From contig JAIOAT010000004.1 in assembly GCA_019873685.1 (NCBI GenBank), positions 62,001 to 126,000 of the forward strand: 64,000 nt of DNA. Reading direction: 5' to 3'. The stretch is from Chloroflexota bacterium. GTDB taxonomy: Bacteria; Chloroflexota; Anaerolineae; Aggregatilineales; Ch27. Each line of letters begins with the position of its first letter. Positions within the stretch are counted from its first letter, which is position 1. The position numbers were made by a program, and so were the translations under genes. Of this stretch, positions 44,675 through 53,884 are shown piece after piece. The notes beneath the pieces were generated by a model. The model ran no database searches. It was not told where the DNA came from and saw nothing but the letters and a program-made list of their open reading frames with translations.

Positions 44675-44710
44675 CGCCTCGCCGGTTGTTCAGACTGGCG
44701 GGGCGTTTTA
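44675..44710. terminator. Bidirectional terminator between CpXC gene and pbpA
   Basis: CGCCTCGCC (44675-44683) pairs with GGCGGGGCG (44697-44705), with one G-U pair, followed by TTTTA. The T-run overlaps the pbpA stop codon on the other strand. Confidence 0.65.
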
Positions 44711-46147
44711 GCGTCTGGCAGGCGAGGATGGTCCGTAGATGCGGGCTGCTGTGTCCAGAAGCAGACCGCCAGCGCGTGCTGCGTCATCGACGGCAGGCGT
44801 GTCTTCCAGGACAACAACTGCGACTACTGCCGCGCCATTCGGGAAGACGATCATGCCGGTGAACCACTGCAACGGCCTGGCTTCTGGCCCGGCATAGGCA
44901 GTGGCAGCATGGCCGAGGATCGGATAGCTGCTGGCACCCTGCGCTGCTGCGGCGACGCCATCGGCCACCGCGGCGGCCATATAGCTCTGCATCAGGCGAG
45001 CGTTCTCGCGGGTGAGCAGGGCACGGGAGAGGCCGCTCGACGGGACGGACTGCCAGGCGTCTTCGCCAGGCAGGCGAATGGCATCGACCAGGCGGAAGAG
45101 CGGGGCGTTGCCATTATTGGCGATGGCGGCGACCAGCTCAAGAACCTGCAACGGGGTTACCGCCAGTGGCCCCTGGCCGACCAGGCTGGCGATGACAGCT
45201 TCCCGTGATTCCTGCAGCGAGAGGGGCATCGGCGAATCGGCGGTGGCCGTGCCCAGGCCCAGCAGTTCCGTGGGGGTAAGCAGACCATAGCGCCACAGGG
45301 CGCCATCGATCCGGTTCGCTTCCAGCAGGGTGGTTAGCCGGGCGAAGGCGCCTGGGCATCCGTACTGGTAGGCTTCCGGCAGGGTGAGTCCCTCGCGGGG
45401 GGCGGCGATACCGCAGGAAAGCTCCAGACCGTTGACGCTGACTGTCTCGGTGGCAGTCGGCAGGATGCGATCGGTCGGGCCACGCTCCGCCAGTAGCGCC
45501 GCCAGCAGGACGGTCTGTAGCACACCTCCCGGCTGATACAGGCCCTGCGTCACCCGGTTGAGCAGCGGCGCATCCGGCGACTGGATCAGTACTGACCAAT
45601 CTTCATCCAGGAAGTTGGGGTCATAGCTGGGTGTGCTGGCCAGCGCCCGAACGCCGCCATCCGGCACAGTGATCACGACTGCCGCCCCGTTGCGGTTCCC
45701 CAGGGCTTGCACGGCTGTCTGCTGCACCTGCAGGTTCAGGGTCAGCCGGACATCACCCCCGACGGCTGGTTGATGTAGCAGGCGACGCAGGGCTGTGTCC
45801 AGCGGCCCGGGGCCGATTTCCCCGCGTAGCAGCGCGTCATAGGAGGTTTCGATGCCGGCAGTACCATAGCGGAGGCTGTAGTAGCCAACTGCTGAGGCGG
45901 CTTCCGGGTGTGGGTACAGACGGCGCAGACCGCGCCCGTTGTAGTCGGTGGTTGTCTCGGCCAGCAGCATCCCGTGCTCATCGTAGATGCGCCCGCGCTG
46001 AAGAACCCGTTCGGCCTCGACCAGGCGGGGGTTGTCCACCCTGCGCAGCAAATCGTCGCCGCGGATGACGCCCCAGTAGGTGGCCGCCAGCGCCATGACC
46101 AGAAAGGCCAGCAACACACCCGCCGTGACCCGGCGCAGCTCGGTCAT
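44708..46147 (-). CDS. pbpA: PbpA/FtsI-like penicillin-binding protein lacking transpeptidase motifs
   Basis: This is a 479-residue class B PBP homologue. It has an N-terminal membrane anchor (about 8-28), a PBP dimerisation/pedestal domain (RGRIYDEHGMLLAET, then YYSLRYGTAGIE) and a transpeptidase fold (VRLTLNLQVQQTAVQAL). All three catalytic motifs are lost. SxxK (normally PGSTFK) is PGGVLQ, with Gly208 and Gln211 in place of Ser and Lys. SxN (normally SCN) is GCP at 263-265. KTG (normally GKTGTA) is GHAATA at 412-417. The fold-defining VGQGPLAVTPLQ is kept. It cannot acylate substrate, so a structural role, for example as an activator of RodA, is likely. ATG 46147 overlaps the rodA stop (ATGA), fixing the start. 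Confidence 0.92.
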   Translation of the reverse strand: MTELRRVTAGVLLAFLVMALAATYWGVIRGDDLLRRVDNPRLVEAERVLQRGRIYDEHGMLLAETTTDYNGRGLRRLYPHPEAASAVGYYSLRYGTAGIETSYDALLRGEIGPGPLDTALRRLLHQPAVGGDVRLTLNLQVQQTAVQALGNRNGAAVVITVPDGGVRALASTPSYDPNFLDEDWSVLIQSPDAPLLNRVTQGLYQPGGVLQTVLLAALLAERGPTDRILPTATETVSVNGLELSCGIAAPREGLTLPEAYQYGCPGAFARLTTLLEANRIDGALWRYGLLTPTELLGLGTATADSPMPLSLQESREAVIASLVGQGPLAVTPLQVLELVAAIANNGNAPLFRLVDAIRLPGEDAWQSVPSSGLSRALLTRENARLMQSYMAAAVADGVAAAAQGASSYPILGHAATAYAGPEARPLQWFTGMIVFPNGAAVVAVVVLEDTPAVDDAARAGGLLLDTAARIYGPSSPARR

Positions 46148-47436
46148 AGTGCCCTGTCCTCCTGCTGCCAGCGCGGTGGGGCGGAGAGCATCAGCAGTAG
46201 CCCGATCAGACTGAAGTTCATCAGCAGGGAACTGCCGCCATAGCTCATGAAGGGCAGGGTAACGCCGGTCAGCGGGATCACCTTGAGCACGCCGCCGATG
46301 ATCAACAGGCTCTGGGTGGCTAACTGGACGCTGAGACCGGCGGCCAGCAGGGTACGGAAATGCGACTCCGGCCACAGGGCGGCCAGATGCATACCCCGGA
46401 CCACCAGCACGGCCAGGCAGGCGATGACGGCCAGCGTGCCCACCAGCCCCCATTCCTCGGCGATGGCCGCGAAGATGAAATCGGAGTGCACGACAGGCAC
46501 ATAGACGGGCAAGCCCTGGCCGATTCCCTGGCCGAGCACGCCGCCGGACGCCACCGCCAGCAGACTCTGCACAATCTGGAATGCGCGGTTGCTGGCTTCC
46601 GGCCAGGGATTCAACCAGACTTCAATGCGCAGTTCCACTACGCTGAACAGACGATAAGCCGCCACCACGGCCAGCAGGAGCAACAGCAGCCCGAAGATCA
46701 CATAGGTGATCTGGCCGGTGGCGATGTAAAGCAGCGTCAGAAACACCACGAAGAGCATGGTCGCCGCGCCCAGGTCCTGCTGCCATACGGTGACAACGAT
46801 GCAGATGCCCCACATCAGGAGCAGCGGGCCGAATGGGCGGAGGGAAGGCAGCCTTCTGGCAAAGCCATTGGTGTTGCGCAGATCGTCGCGGTAGTCGGCC
46901 ATGTAGCTGGCCAGGAAGATGACCAGAGCCAGCTTGAGCAGCTCGGAAGGCTGAAAGTACAGTCCCCATGCTCCCAGCCACAGGCGCGGTCCGGCGCCGG
47001 AAGGATTGACGCCCAGGAGGATGCTGACCAGCAGTAACGCCAGGCCGCCCAGCAGCCACGTGTAGCGGTAGCGGCGCAGCCAGCGCATATGGATCGGCAG
47101 AGTGCTGATGGCCAGCATCGCCAGGATGCTCAGTAGCAACCAGATCGCCTGCCGCCAGGCGAAGTTTGGCGCCAGACGCTGGATCGTCAGCAACCCCCAG
47201 CCGCTCAGCAGCATCGCAATGGCGAAGATCAGCGGATCACGCTGAGGCAGCAGACGATCCAGTGTCTGGTGCCCGAAGATGGCAGCGGCCAGCCACACGC
47301 CAAAGAGCACCAGCGCCCACCCATTGTCTGCCGCCACGCTGAGTGTCACGGCGGCAATCAGCAGGAACAACCCGCCCAGGATGAGCAGGTTGCGCTCACG
47401 CAGGTGGGCGTTGTAGGTGACCCTGGCGAAGGTCAT
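46144..47436 (-). CDS. rodA: RodA/FtsW-family (SEDS) peptidoglycan glycosyltransferase
   Basis: This is a 430-residue SEDS protein with about ten to twelve membrane helices. Conserved residues appear intact: FQPSELLKLALV (the functional Lys), WQQDLGAATM (the catalytic Asp), VHSDFIFAAIAEEWGLVG and LTGVTLPFMSYGGSSL. SEDS proteins polymerise lipid II and are activated by a cognate class B PBP. Here the PBP is encoded immediately downstream with a 4-bp overlap but has no catalytic residues. The SEDS gene thus keeps an active-looking site beside a dead partner. Confidence 0.94.
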   Translation of the reverse strand: MTFARVTYNAHLRERNLLILGGLFLLIAAVTLSVAADNGWALVLFGVWLAAAIFGHQTLDRLLPQRDPLIFAIAMLLSGWGLLTIQRLAPNFAWRQAIWLLLSILAMLAISTLPIHMRWLRRYRYTWLLGGLALLLVSILLGVNPSGAGPRLWLGAWGLYFQPSELLKLALVIFLASYMADYRDDLRNTNGFARRLPSLRPFGPLLLMWGICIVVTVWQQDLGAATMLFVVFLTLLYIATGQITYVIFGLLLLLLAVVAAYRLFSVVELRIEVWLNPWPEASNRAFQIVQSLLAVASGGVLGQGIGQGLPVYVPVVHSDFIFAAIAEEWGLVGTLAVIACLAVLVVRGMHLAALWPESHFRTLLAAGLSVQLATQSLLIIGGVLKVIPLTGVTLPFMSYGGSSLLMNFSLIGLLLMLSAPPRWQQEDRAL

Positions 47437-47451: not shown

Positions 47452-48327
47452 TCAACTGAAGTACTTGCCAATGATCGGGCGCAGGCGCTCCACCACCTCG
47501 GCAGGGACAACCTCGCGGTCGGTGATGAAGGCTGCCTTCAGGGCGTTGGCGATCTCGTCTTCAGTGTAGGCGTCAGGGTTAGCGCCCAGCTGGGCGACGG
47601 CGTGAGCGACAGCTTGCTGGGCGACCGCAACGCTCCGCTGCATGGTGGCAATGACCATCTCCACCGTCACCGGCTCCTCGCTTTCGTGCCAGGAGTCGTA
47701 ATCGGTGACATGCCCGATAACGGCGTAGTGCATTTCTGCTTCGCGGGCCAGGTAGGCTTCCGGGCTGGTGGTCATGCCGATGAGGCCCATCCCCCACTGG
47801 CGGAAGACGAAACTCTCGCCTCTGGTACTGAAGCGCGGCCCTTCTACCGTGAGGAAGGTACCGCCACGGTGAGCGATCCCGCCAACGGCGCGCACGGAAT
47901 CGTATAGCAGCTGGCTGAGACGCATGGCGAAGGGTTCGGCAACCGAGACATGGGCGACCAGACCATCGCCGAAGAAGGTGCGCGGACGGCCATAGGTCAG
48001 GTCAACAAGTTGATCGGGGATGACCATGTGGCCGGGCGCATAGGCTGCCTGTAGCGAGCCACAGGCGCTGACGCCAATGATGTGGGTGACGCCCATGAGC
48101 TTGAGGGCGAAGATATTGGCCTGGTAGGGAACCTCTGAAGGCATGTAGCGGTGGCCGATCCCATGACGGGGGATGAAGGCAACGCGGTGACCGCGCAGTG
48201 TGCCAACCACGATCGGCGCACTTGGCTTGCCGAAAGGCGTTTCCAGGTCATAGGTTCTCAGATCGGTTAGTTCCTGCATCTTGTAGAGGCCCGATCCGCC
48301 AATCACACCGATCCGTACTGATTCCAT
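47452..48327 (-). CDS. mtnP: S-methyl-5'-thioadenosine phosphorylase
   Basis: This is a 291-residue MTAP/PNP-family enzyme: GVIGGSGLYKM, FIPRHGIGHRYMPSEVPYQANIFAL, VSACGSLQ, VEGPRFSTRGES, and GMTTSPEAYLAREAEMHYA. It phosphorolyses methylthioadenosine from polyamine synthesis. The motif choice (STRGES, and MTTSPE) points to MTA, not guanosine, though some homologues are broad. AAGGAG precedes the ATG. It lies between the SDR and rodA genes in the same direction, an unusual metabolic insertion in a cell-wall operon. Confidence 0.92.
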   Translation of the reverse strand: MESVRIGVIGGSGLYKMQELTDLRTYDLETPFGKPSAPIVVGTLRGHRVAFIPRHGIGHRYMPSEVPYQANIFALKLMGVTHIIGVSACGSLQAAYAPGHMVIPDQLVDLTYGRPRTFFGDGLVAHVSVAEPFAMRLSQLLYDSVRAVGGIAHRGGTFLTVEGPRFSTRGESFVFRQWGMGLIGMTTSPEAYLAREAEMHYAVIGHVTDYDSWHESEEPVTVEMVIATMQRSVAVAQQAVAHAVAQLGANPDAYTEDEIANALKAAFITDREVVPAEVVERLRPIIGKYFS

Positions 48328-48395: not shown

Positions 48396-49187
48396 CTAAA
48401 GCGCCGCCAGAATTGCACCGCCATCAACCGGGATCATCGCTCCGTGAATGTAGGATGCCGCAGGTGAGCACAAGAAGGCCGCCACGCGGGCGAACTCCTC
48501 CGGGTCAGCCATGCGCCGCAGCGGGATGGCCGCCACCTGCGCGGCGATCTCCGTCTCGATGTCAGTGCCTTTTTGCCGGGCGCGGGCTTCCATCAGTTCG
48601 GTCACACGCTCAGTGCGTGTCCAACCTGGCATAATGCTGTTCACCCGGATGCCTTCCGGGCCAAGCTCGCCGGCCAGCGTCTTCGTGAGGCCGATGACAG
48701 CCGCACGCAGGCTATTGGAAAGCACCAGGTTGGGGATGGGTTGCTTGGCCGAGTAGGAGGTCAGGGTCAGGATGGCCGGATGCCGGGAGGCACGCAGATA
48801 GGGCAGCGCGGCCTGGATCAGGCGCACCGCGCTCAGCAGCGTCGTCTGCACGGCGGCTTCCCAGGCTTCAACGCCCAGCGCCGCAAAAGGGCCGGATGGT
48901 GGGCCGCCGGCGTTGGTGATCAGGATGTCCAGACCGCCCAGTACATCGACTGTTTCGGCCACCAGCCGCGTTGCCGCCTGCGGATCGCTGACGTCAGCGG
49001 TCAACGGGATCACCCGCTGACCGCTTTCGGCGCTGATGCGGGCTGCGGTGGCCGCGATGCGCTCCGCGTCGCGGCTGCAGATGGCTACCTGCGCGCCTTC
49101 CAGGCTGAGCTGCCGGGCGGTGGCGGCGCCCAGGCCACGGCTGGCGGCTGTGACCAGCGCTCGCAGACCCTGAAGACTCAACTCCAT
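48396..49187 (-). CDS. Atypical short-chain dehydrogenase/reductase
   Basis: This is a 263-residue SDR. The nucleotide-binding motif is TAASRGLGAATA (first Gly of TGxxxGxG is Ala). NAG (ITNAGG) is present. The catalytic YxxxK is replaced: the aligned stretch is SNSLR, with Ser and Arg in place of Tyr and Lys, followed by GLTKTLAGELGPEGIRVN. This matches the cd05344 BKR-like subgroup (3-oxoacyl-ACP reductase-like), which lacks the usual tetrad. Substrate unknown. It lies 63 bp after fhaB and 69 bp before mtnP. Confidence 0.88.
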   Translation of the reverse strand: MELSLQGLRALVTAASRGLGAATARQLSLEGAQVAICSRDAERIAATAARISAESGQRVIPLTADVSDPQAATRLVAETVDVLGGLDILITNAGGPPSGPFAALGVEAWEAAVQTTLLSAVRLIQAALPYLRASRHPAILTLTSYSAKQPIPNLVLSNSLRAAVIGLTKTLAGELGPEGIRVNSIMPGWTRTERVTELMEARARQKGTDIETEIAAQVAAIPLRRMADPEEFARVAAFLCSPAASYIHGAMIPVDGGAILAAL

Positions 49188-49249: not shown

Positions 49250-49687
49250 TTACTCCAGTTGCAGGCGCAAGGTTACGCGCCCGATGCCGATCAGGTCACC
49301 GCTGCTCAGGATGACCGGCTCCCGGACGCGCGAGCCATTCAGAAACGTCCCGTTACTGCTATCCCGATCCTCCAGCCACCAGTTGCCTTCACGATAGGTG
49401 ATCAGGGCGTGTTCGTTGCTGGCAAACGTATCGGCCAGGTGGACAGTGTTGGTGGGGGCGCGTCCCAGGCTGGTGAGCGGGAGCAGCGGGAATTCCGTGT
49501 CCAGCGGTACATCGTCACAGTCCGAAGCCAGGACGATCAACCGTCCGCGCGGGATGCGCCGCTGTTCGATTTCCCGCGTGGTGACCTGATAATCCCGCCA
49601 GAGCAGCAGAAGCAGGGCGGCGACAAACAGGAGGAGAAACCCGGCTGCGCTCAGCCGCAGGATGAGGAGCAATATCGCTTCGTTCAC
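49250..49687 (-). CDS. FhaB-like FHA-domain membrane protein
   Basis: This is a 145-residue protein. One membrane helix near residues 5-30 is followed by an FHA domain (about 65-145): SLGRAPTNTVHL, SNEHALI, and SSNGTFLNGSRV. FHA domains bind phosphothreonine. In Actinobacteria FhaB (FipA partner) lies with rodA, pbpA and PknB. No kinase or phosphatase gene is in this window. The start overlaps fhaA by 4 bp (ATGA). Confidence 0.9.
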   Translation of the reverse strand: MNEAILLLILRLSAAGFLLLFVAALLLLLWRDYQVTTREIEQRRIPRGRLIVLASDCDDVPLDTEFPLLPLTSLGRAPTNTVHLADTFASNEHALITYREGNWWLEDRDSSNGTFLNGSRVREPVILSSGDLIGIGRVTLRLQLE

Positions 49688-50481
49688 GGGGTCGATCCTT
49701 CAGGCGGCTGGGGCGGATGCAGATCAATCTGGGTGTCGGCCATCGTGCGATCCGGTTGCTCGTCATCCAGGTAGAGCAGGGAAACTCCCCCGACACGGAT
49801 GACGTCACCTGAAGAGAGGATGTGCTCGCTGGCACGCTGCCCGTTGACGTAGGTACCGCTCCGGCTATGGCGGTCGTAGAGCACATAACGTCCCTGGCGC
49901 AGCCGGATCTGAAGGTGGTGGCGGGAAACGCGCAGGTCTTCCAGAATCAGGTCGTTGTCCGGGTGCCGGCCAACGTTGAAGATCTCCAGGTTGAGAGCGA
50001 CGATCCGCTTGCCATCCACGATCAGCTGCGCTCCTGAGGGGGGCGGCGCCATGAGCGGCAGGCCGGGCTGGATTGGCTCCAGGATCTGCGTGGTGTCATG
50101 CTTGCGGGCGCGGTGCTGGGCTGTGATCTGCACCTGCTGGCGCGGGATGTCTGCATCAGCCAGCAGGCTGACCTCCGGCGTACTGAGCAGGACAAGGCGG
50201 GCCTCCTGACAATACGTCACCACCTGGCGGGCCAGCTGCTCCCCCAGATCGGGCATCTCTGCCAGCAGGAGGCGGTGATCGTGCGGGTTGAGCCGGATCT
50301 GGTACTGGGTCGGGGCTAACTCGCGCTCTTCCGGGCCAGCCAGAAGGTTGTCCTCAATGGCGTGGGCCAGTTGCACAGCTACTTCCCGCGGGTGCACTGA
50401 CGCGCGGAAGAGGCGGGAAAACCCGCCTTCAATCAGCCGCTCCAGCCGCTCTTCAAGCTGGTTGATTCGTCGCCTGGTCAT
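49684..50481 (-). CDS. FhaA-like protein (DUF3662 + FHA)
   Basis: This is a 265-residue protein. A DUF3662 domain lies at about residues 1-120 (RINQLEERLERLIEGGFSRLF, HPREVAVQLAHAIEDN). An FHA domain at about 165-245 contains NVGRHPDNDLIL, SRHHLQI and RSGTYVNG. This is the layout of actinobacterial FhaA, which binds the phosphorylated MviN/MurJ pseudokinase and regulates wall synthesis. It is the first gene of a six-gene minus-strand run (fhaA, fhaB, SDR, mtnP, rodA, pbpA). Its ATG lies 7 bases after a consensus -10 box, so the message is probably leaderless. Confidence 0.92.
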   Translation of the reverse strand: MTRRRINQLEERLERLIEGGFSRLFRASVHPREVAVQLAHAIEDNLLAGPEERELAPTQYQIRLNPHDHRLLLAEMPDLGEQLARQVVTYCQEARLVLLSTPEVSLLADADIPRQQVQITAQHRARKHDTTQILEPIQPGLPLMAPPPSGAQLIVDGKRIVALNLEIFNVGRHPDNDLILEDLRVSRHHLQIRLRQGRYVLYDRHSRSGTYVNGQRASEHILSSGDVIRVGGVSLLYLDDEQPDRTMADTQIDLHPPQPPEGSTP

Positions 50482-51988: not shown

Positions 51989-53884
51989 GTGCTGCAGGGC
52001 AAGGGCATCTTCATCTGGCAGGTGCAGAAGTGTGACCAGGGCGATTCTCAACGTCTGGTCGCGCTGGCCCGCGCCGCGCAGATCAGCCATGTCATCTTCA
52101 AGCTGTCAGAAGGGGCATACGACTTCCCGCCGCCGGCGCAGGACCCCGGGGGGCGGTATGAACTGCTGACCGATGCTGCCATCCGCGCCCTGCGCGGGGC
52201 CGGGATCGCTGTGTGGGCGCTGGCGCATATCCAGGGCCAGGATCCGGTCATGGAGGCGCACCGCGCTGCGGCGCGCGTGCTCAAGTGGCGGCTGGATGGA
52301 CTGGTTATTGGCCCGCAGGGCCAGTATGTCGGCCAGCATGAACGCGCCCGCGAATTCATGGCGACGATCCGGCGCGACCTGGGCAGCGAGCGCCCGCTGG
52401 CCTTCAGCCTGTTCCTGAACCCCGATACCCAGGACCCACCGGGCTGGCCGCTTTCGCGCCGTTTTCCAATTGACGAATTCGTGGCCGGGTGCGATCTGAT
52501 CATGCCTCAGGTGTACTGGATCGCGCGGGATGGCGGCGATCCGGCGGCAACCTTGCGCGAGAATTACGATCAATATACCCGCCGGTATCCCGGCAAGCCC
52601 TATGTTCCGACCGGGGCTGCCTTTGGAGAGCAGTACGGCACGATGCAGTGGACGGCCACCCCGGCGCAGATCGGGATGTTCCTGAACCAGGCGCGGGCGC
52701 TGGGCTTGCCCGCGGCCAACTTCTGGAGCTGGCAACACGCCCGCAATGACGCTGGCAATCCCCGTTATACGGCCACCCAGCTGTGGGACGCGATCGCCGC
52801 TTATCCCTGGCCGCTGGAAGGCCCGGAACTTCCTCCGGAACCCCCGGTCGAGGAAGATCCGTTCGCTGATCGCGTGGAGATCATCCCGCCGGGCGACCGG
52901 CGCTATCTGGATGGCATCTATGATCGCACCGGCGCGACGCGCTTCACCGTGATGAGCAGTGCGCACGGGCCGGTCAAGTACAGCGCTACTCAGCCGGCGC
53001 GTAGCACCCTGTGGGCGCAATGGGTGCCCGGCATCCGGCAGTCTGGACGCTACGAGATCGCCGTCTGGGTCCCCGGTACGCACGCGACCACCCGTCGCGC
53101 CCGCTATCACATTCGCGGGGTGGCCGGTCATGACAGCACGGTGATCGTGGAACTGGATCAGAATCGCTATTACGACCGTTTTGTGCCGCTGGGGGTGTTT
53201 GACCTGGACGCTTCCCGGCCTGACGCAGGGGCGGTGAATCTGACGAATCTGACTGGCGAGACCGGGCGCGAGGTGGCGTTCTCACCGCTGCGCTGGAAGC
53301 TGATCGGTAATACCCCGGATGCGCCGCTGGCCGATGGCTATGACGCGCCGGTGGGCACGGCTGAGGAACGGCGTGCTGACCGCCTGTGGCCGGGGCGATG
53401 GGTGGACGCGGTGGGGTTTGCCCGGCGGTACCGCGACGGCGCCCGCACCACAGCCTACCACACAGGTGCTGACCTGAATCTCAATGTGCCGCGCTGGGAT
53501 AGTGACCGCGGGGCAACCATCTATGCCATTGGCAGCGGTACGGTGGTCTTCGCCGGGCGGCTGGACATCTGGGGGCAGGTGCTGGTGATTCGCCACGATC
53601 CACGCGATCCGGACGGCAACCCCGTCTGGGCGCGTTACGCGCACGTGGACCGCGTTCAGGTACGGGCCGGCGATCGGGTTCGGCGCGGGCAACCCATTGC
53701 GGTGATCGGTAAGCCGGAGCCTGAAGGTGCGCCGTACCACCTGCACTTCGACATCTGTACGACCGGCATTCTGGAAGATGCGCCGGGGCACTGGCCGCGC
53801 CTGAATTACACCGAACTGATCACCCACTATGTGGATCCGCTGGCTTTCCTGCAGGCGAACAGGCCGCCTGAGTACTTACGTTGA
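51989..53884 (+). CDS. Barrel-golvesin-M23 peptidase protein 1
   Basis: This is a 631-residue protein in three parts. Residues about 1-275 look like a TIM-barrel glycoside-hydrolase-type domain (KGIFIWQVQKCDQGD, then DLIMPQVYW and FWSWQHA). About 300-430 resembles the golvesin/xly beta-sandwich (SGRYEIAVWVPGTHATT, then GVFDLDA). About 440-625 is an M23/LytM metallopeptidase with H491-x3-D495 (YHTGADLN) and H584-L-H586 (YHLHFD). M23 enzymes usually cut peptidoglycan cross-bridges. There is no signal peptide or membrane segment, so export, if any, is not classical. The GTG start has GGGAGGT 8 bases upstream. It is followed by a paralogue with the same layout. Confidence 0.85.
   Translation: MLQGKGIFIWQVQKCDQGDSQRLVALARAAQISHVIFKLSEGAYDFPPPAQDPGGRYELLTDAAIRALRGAGIAVWALAHIQGQDPVMEAHRAAARVLKWRLDGLVIGPQGQYVGQHERAREFMATIRRDLGSERPLAFSLFLNPDTQDPPGWPLSRRFPIDEFVAGCDLIMPQVYWIARDGGDPAATLRENYDQYTRRYPGKPYVPTGAAFGEQYGTMQWTATPAQIGMFLNQARALGLPAANFWSWQHARNDAGNPRYTATQLWDAIAAYPWPLEGPELPPEPPVEEDPFADRVEIIPPGDRRYLDGIYDRTGATRFTVMSSAHGPVKYSATQPARSTLWAQWVPGIRQSGRYEIAVWVPGTHATTRRARYHIRGVAGHDSTVIVELDQNRYYDRFVPLGVFDLDASRPDAGAVNLTNLTGETGREVAFSPLRWKLIGNTPDAPLADGYDAPVGTAEERRADRLWPGRWVDAVGFARRYRDGARTTAYHTGADLNLNVPRWDSDRGATIYAIGSGTVVFAGRLDIWGQVLVIRHDPRDPDGNPVWARYAHVDRVQVRAGDRVRRGQPIAVIGKPEPEGAPYHLHFDICTTGILEDAPGHWPRLNYTELITHYVDPLAFLQANRPPEYLR

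Follow-up and report, generated by a model that had tools for sequence, protein, structure and literature searches.

A conserved, probable pseudo-transpeptidase of the PbpA type encoded beside a SEDS polymerase gene in the Anaerolineae

Pairs of SEDS proteins and class B penicillin-binding proteins (PBPs) are thought to couple polymerisation to cross-linking in cell wall synthesis and are major drug targets. The RodA-PBP2 complexes of E. coli (8tj3) and Thermus (6pl5) each consist of a SEDS protein with a catalytic Asp and a single-pass class B PBP, the helix and pedestal of which act on RodA (PMC10449877, PMC6207328). The transmembrane helix of E. coli PBP2 alone stimulates RodA (PMC10449877), changes in the pedestal activate RodA (PMC6207328), and opening of PBP2 has been tied to the activity of the Rod complex (PMC10257715). 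In B. subtilis, a dead PBP2B supports division provided that PBP3 cross-links (PMC5656894), and in C. difficile division is still supported with a dead class B PBP, with PBP3 giving the cross-links (PMC12713402). The engineered variants concerned, PBP2B S309A and SpoVD S311A, still support the SEDS partner while another PBP takes care of cross-linking (PMC5656894, PMC12713402). Natural fusions of a SEDS protein and a PBP in a single open reading frame have been stated to exist (PMC10449877, its reference 18 being the genome of Rhodococcus RHA1). PBPs inactivated in the laboratory and SEDS-PBP fusions in nature were thus already known, whereas the literature searched, which was mostly open-access and excluded bioRxiv, gave no natural case of a class B PBP that is dead throughout a lineage and has an intact SEDS partner; this is weak evidence for novelty. 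The mostly open-access literature searched also gave no report on an anchor-only form of a PBP or on the PBPs of Anaerolineae. Normally it takes mutation to separate activation by a PBP from its catalysis; evolution appears to have done so across much of the Anaerolineae.

The locus described here lies in a window of 64,000 nucleotides, by which we mean the whole stretch of DNA that was analysed. It comprises a rodA and a pbpA gene that overlap, as noted in the original prediction, with 4 nt in common, in a cluster with the order fhaA-fhaB-SDR-phosphorylase-rodA-pbpA:

49684-50481, minus strand: fhaA, FHA-domain protein (FhaA_N, 81 bits)
49250-49687, minus strand: fhaB, FHA-domain protein; fhaA-fhaB form the head of the cluster
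48396-49187, minus strand: short-chain dehydrogenase (SDR) gene (Pfam), in the same direction as rodA-pbpA
47452-48327, minus strand: phosphorylase-superfamily, MTAP-like gene (Pfam), directly upstream of rodA
46144-47436, minus strand: rodA, 430 aa (PF01098, 248 bits), one of three SEDS genes in the genome
44708-46147, minus strand: pbpA, ATG at 46147, 479 aa, PbpA-type class B PBP without an active site

The region of fhaA and fhaB (49250-50481) gives FHA matches of 69 and 73 bits with Pfam. The cluster order is largely retained in relatives, and fhaA-fhaB recur in this order in many of them. We take the arrangement to resemble the actinobacterial fha-rodA-pbpA-pkn cluster, and in M. tuberculosis pbpA presumably adjoins rodA with FHA genes nearby, as in the window. 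In comparison with the M. tuberculosis locus, the window has the SDR and phosphorylase genes located between fhaB and rodA. The fhaA-fhaB neighbours suggest that the pair may be controlled by Ser/Thr phosphorylation. The phosphorylase gene adjoins rodA in most relatives and is a conserved neighbour of a cell-wall pair. Close to the cluster, positions 51989-53884 encode a likely wall enzyme of 631 aa in which a golvesin C-terminal domain is combined with an M23 peptidase domain.

The window RodA is a SEDS glycosyltransferase both by its profile match to PF01098 and by the presence of the catalytic Asp with its neighbouring Pro, His, Trp and Gln. It stays below the RodA/FtsW equivalog cut-offs (TIGR02210, 198 vs 336.7; TIGR02614, 253 vs 337.5), and for this reason it is regarded as a third SEDS type that is called RodA for its PbpA partner. 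The protein was aligned to the structures of Thermus RodA and Pseudomonas FtsW, and residue equivalences to E. coli RodA were set by alignment. The catalytic Asp lies in an H-x-D-F motif, which in the window reads VPVVHSDF:

46480-46482, minus strand: codon for the catalytic RodA Asp319, matching Asp262 in E. coli and Asp255 in Thermus (structure-sequence alignment)

Next to Asp319, RodA keeps Pro314 and His317 as well as the loop-2 equivalents Trp153, Gln162 and Lys168, the last of which we take to correspond to Lys117 in E. coli numbering. The earlier claim that the polymerase retains its catalytic Asp and conserved Lys therefore holds. A possible loss of the catalytic Asp, read from an NPWxDP motif that has become NPWPEA, was considered and ruled out: Pro257, His260, Thr261 and Asp262 are the residues given for RodA in the study on E. 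coli RodA-PBP2 (PMC10449877), and the sequence of the Thermus mutant 6pl6, compared to 6pl5, is changed exactly there (HTAF in place of HTDF), so that both place the catalytic Asp in HxDF. The residue is present in 153/153 degenerate and 64/64 intact pairs.

The partner of this polymerase has the composition of a PbpA-type class B PBP, with a single membrane anchor, a PbpA dimerisation domain and a transpeptidase (TP) fold. With residues numbered from the ATG at 46147 as Met-1, its parts are the following:

46012-46147, minus strand: membrane anchor (helix 2-28) and juxtamembrane R-x-D-N-P-R segment (residues 36-41), from the AlphaFold2 model
45701-46011, minus strand: pedestal, PbpA dimerisation domain (PF21922, 36 bits)
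44795-45688, minus strand: dead transpeptidase domain (PF00905, 60 bits)
45515-45526, minus strand: former SxxK site, GVLQ (208-211), within YQPGGVLQ; Gly208 and Gln211
45353-45361, minus strand: former SxN site, GCP (263-265), Cys-Pro in place of SxN
44903-44911, minus strand: former KTG site, HAA (413-415), KTG Lys absent

The predicted structure (AlphaFold2, pLDDT 91.9) is closest to M. tuberculosis PbpA (3lo7, 3un7), with which it shares the PbpA-type pedestal (Z 44.9, 2.3 A over 394 residues, 28% identity). According to this model and the two Pfam matches, the anchor, pedestal and transpeptidase fold are retained while the motifs are gone, and the replacements at all three sites were correctly recognised at the outset, coordinates included. 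M. tuberculosis PbpA is catalytic and forms acyl-enzymes with beta-lactams (3upn, 3upo, 3upp), and the PBP2 proteins of E. coli and Thermus are active transpeptidases; the window PbpA differs from all of these by the loss of the three motifs. It points to a branch of polymerases with a partner that beta-lactams should not be able to acylate.

The loss is not confined to one genome. The order, most likely Aggregatilineales (class Anaerolineae, phylum Chloroflexota), was searched in 154 genomes from 8 families and 61 genera, about 130 of which contain a near-full-length PbpA orthologue. The SxxK Lys, SxN and KTG are all missing in 89/89 orthologues of the order that were read, the window's included, so none of these proteins has the motif set of a catalytic class B PBP. 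Cys-Pro occupies the SxN site in all 89; in a residue count for the order, Cys-Pro is present in 84/84 and the KTG Lys is missing in 84/84. Elsewhere in the class, L107 and L119 are intact and the other families examined are degenerate, whereas outside the class 42 of 43 PbpAs carry all motifs, the exception being L130. The number of motif elements kept is bimodal over 217 proteins: none in 126, only the SxxK Ser in 27, four in 63 and three in a single case. A single clade (SH-aLRT 99) unites the degenerate pairs in the RodA tree, with the intact L119 as its sister (97) and L130 placed separately, which gives two losses, while in a PbpA tree calculated without the motif columns one loss suffices; both trees are quick searches. 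L130 (G164:C456), from a genome outside the class, would thus be an independent second loss if the RodA tree is followed, but not if the PbpA tree is. The motif loss is ancient and, according to these trees, occurred once or twice, and no reversal was seen among the sequences compared.

Most of the compared genomes are metagenome assemblies. One might suspect that the window PbpA is a gene in decay or reflects a mistake in sequencing or assembly, as the window's genome consists of 109 contigs and, in the relative L273 (G055:C92), the PbpA reading frame is split over two frames by a frameshift or assembly error. This explanation is hardly credible and is refuted by the comparative data: the loss recurs in 89/89 orthologues, which come from many assemblies and exclude chance or sequencing error, the frames are open, and the isolate Thermanaerothrix daxensis is in the same state. 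Intact orthologues occur only outside the lineage, no sign of sequence error was seen, and the loss is conserved across orthologues; a comparison of Chloroflexota orthologues had been proposed as a check together with the prediction. Comparison with the nearest species gives dN/dS values of 0.106 for PbpA and 0.041 for RodA. Since its dN/dS is this low, PbpA is no pseudogene; its long retention without an active site, across 8 families of the order, is that of a pseudoenzyme under purifying selection.

What has been conserved in these proteins also shifted. When pairs of equal RodA divergence are compared (RodA identity 0.5-0.6), the TP domain of intact pairs is better conserved than the pedestal (0.49 and 0.43), and in degenerate pairs this is reversed (TP 0.35, pedestal 0.42), while pedestal conservation relative to RodA stays near that of intact pairs. 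In the juxtamembrane R-x-D-N-P-R segment, the R, D, N and R are present in 95-100% of degenerate pairs and less often in intact pairs. Furthermore, well-covered genomes of the order that have no PbpA, those of genus g36 (below) apart, are missing a RodA of this type too; the two proteins are inherited or lost together.

From these observations we consider it likely that PbpA is a conserved pseudo-transpeptidase that belongs to the third SEDS polymerase, the PbpA-associated one, as a subunit with no catalysis of its own and that positions or activates RodA. The anchor, together with the pedestal where it is kept, would bind RodA and hold or switch it into the active state, as in E. coli PBP2; it is by this analogy that we infer activation of RodA by the dead PBP. 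Co-inheritance, together with the fused and anchor-only forms described below, speaks for an activator indirectly. The proposal of a dedicated RodA activator, made in the original prediction, thus stands in part. It agrees with the conserved loss, the intact catalytic site of RodA, the better preservation of anchor and pedestal as compared to the TP domain and the co-inheritance of both proteins, but a brake, a scaffold or a substrate-sensing protein would leave much the same traces in the sequence.

The glycan made by such a RodA would have to be cross-linked by other enzymes, as was also anticipated. Two further SEDS genes are present in the genome, each clustered with an intact class B PBP: one in an mreB-mreC-mreD-mrdA-(minC, minD)-rodA cluster (PBP motifs PGSVWK, SCD, KTG) and one in an ftsL-ftsI-mraY-murD-ftsW-murG cluster (PGSVFK, SLN, KTG). 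The organism thus carries its own intact mre-cluster PBP2-RodA in addition to the dead pair. It also encodes four L,D-transpeptidase-like (YkuD-type) proteins and further proteins with a transpeptidase domain. Cross-linking can thus be supplied from other parts of the genome, the candidates being the mre-cluster PBP2, FtsI, the other transpeptidase-domain proteins or the L,D-transpeptidases. The situation may be compared to that of PBP2B S309A and SpoVD S311A, with the difference that these are laboratory point mutants, whereas in the Anaerolineae all motifs were lost in nature and throughout a lineage.

The dead TP domain may do more than fill space, since it is not free to drift: Cys-Pro, Trp428 and Gly431 are invariant in the order. 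The domain has a conserved signature of its own (YQPGG.LQT, CP..F, and a W and a G near the C-terminus), which, together with retention of the full PbpA fold, could mean that it became a binding or sensing module for stem peptides, nascent glycan or another protein, reporting to RodA or recruiting cross-linking enzymes. This is unlikely, even though it is the strongest of the rival explanations, as the matching region is deleted in many fused relatives, the whole ectodomain is absent in one genus, and much of the conserved set is structural in intact PbpA too. A further point against it is that, beside the SxN site, Cys245 and Cys264 are both present in 135 degenerate proteins and both absent in 17, a covariation pattern as for a disulfide. 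The same pattern bears on the idea that a new chemistry evolved, such as catalysis by a Cys at the site where Cys-Pro replaced SxN. Invariance of the Cys throughout the order (84/84) would fit such an enzyme, but the SxN-site Cys is also frequent in intact PbpAs (SCN in 32/64), a conserved base or general acid was not seen in the degenerate proteins, and many relatives have lost the site by deletion. Covariation with Cys245 makes Cys264 improbable as a nucleophile, and a Cys-based activity is the least likely of the functional alternatives, with only a very small chance of being correct.

The degenerate state extends, as far as sequences can tell, far beyond the single pair from which the analysis started. 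A full-length dead PbpA beside rodA is found in the window and in most of its order. In four further families of Anaerolineae, RodA and a dead PBP are joined in one frame at 20/21 loci, as judged from uninterrupted frames, and on the tree the fusion state requires about nine changes. A stretch of about 110 profile positions that follows SxxK, comprising the catalytic core with SxN, is missing from many of these fusions. Further fusions include that of T. daxensis (L206:4615-7242, 876 codons), which has FHA genes and the phosphorylase gene in its cluster. Its predicted structure (pLDDT 87.5, pTM 0.78) was matched in separate halves, the SEDS half to FtsW (Z 37.8) and the PBP half to PbpA (Z 38.3), and the isolate provides a cultivable subject for experiments on such fusions.

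The fused proteins are of importance for a further possibility, namely that the dead PBP acts as a competitor or brake, which occupies RodA or the binding site of active PBPs and limits the polymerase until a signal arrives, perhaps by way of the FHA proteins. The sign of an effect is not readable from a sequence, fhaA-fhaB are next to the pair, and an unrestrained polymerase without its own cross-linking enzyme could be toxic, considering the futile cycle that occurs when PBP2 is inactive (PMC6207328). Nevertheless, that the partner was covalently fused to RodA repeatedly is more in line with an obligate subunit than with a brake that can be taken off, and the class B PBP partners known so far have a stimulating effect on their SEDS enzymes (PMC10449877). 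A brake is therefore improbable, ranking below a sensing or binding module and above Cys-based chemistry.

The most reduced form occurs in genus g36, in which three genomes have an ORF of 56-59 aa after rodA, with a 4-nt overlap. These anchor-only ORFs comprise nothing beyond the transmembrane helix and an (E/G)R(E/D)DNPR segment:

L265:3944-4123: anchor-only ORF, genus g36
L266:3928-4107: anchor-only ORF, genus g36
L267:3765-3935: anchor-only ORF, genus g36

Their dN/dS is 0.2-0.4, based on few sites. The accompanying RodA keeps HSDF but not the Trp and Gln of loop 2, for which reason the pair as a whole may be decaying in that genus. Taken over all forms, the anchor is kept longest, followed by the pedestal and the TP shell, and never the active site, which matches what is predicted for a non-catalytic SEDS subunit. 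Going beyond the subunit role favoured above, it can tentatively be envisaged that the Anaerolineae possess a SEDS class with a purely non-enzymatic activator, in which catalysis was lost once, fusion occurred repeatedly, the core was deleted in several lineages, a single-helix activator of 56-59 aa remained in one genus, and cross-linking was fully outsourced. The natural forms, from full-length dead domain to bare anchor, offer a direct test of which part of the partner is needed by a SEDS protein.

In other classes of the phylum, five SEDS genes of this type (L275, L276, L277, L279 and L280) have no detectable PBP within about 1.5 kb. In-frame RodA-PbpA fusions that keep their motifs were encountered in three Chloroflexota-type assemblies and one Lachnospiraceae assembly (L199, L200, L204, L207), whereas the fusions of Anaerolineae contain a dead and often core-deleted domain; fusion is thus separable from the loss of catalysis.
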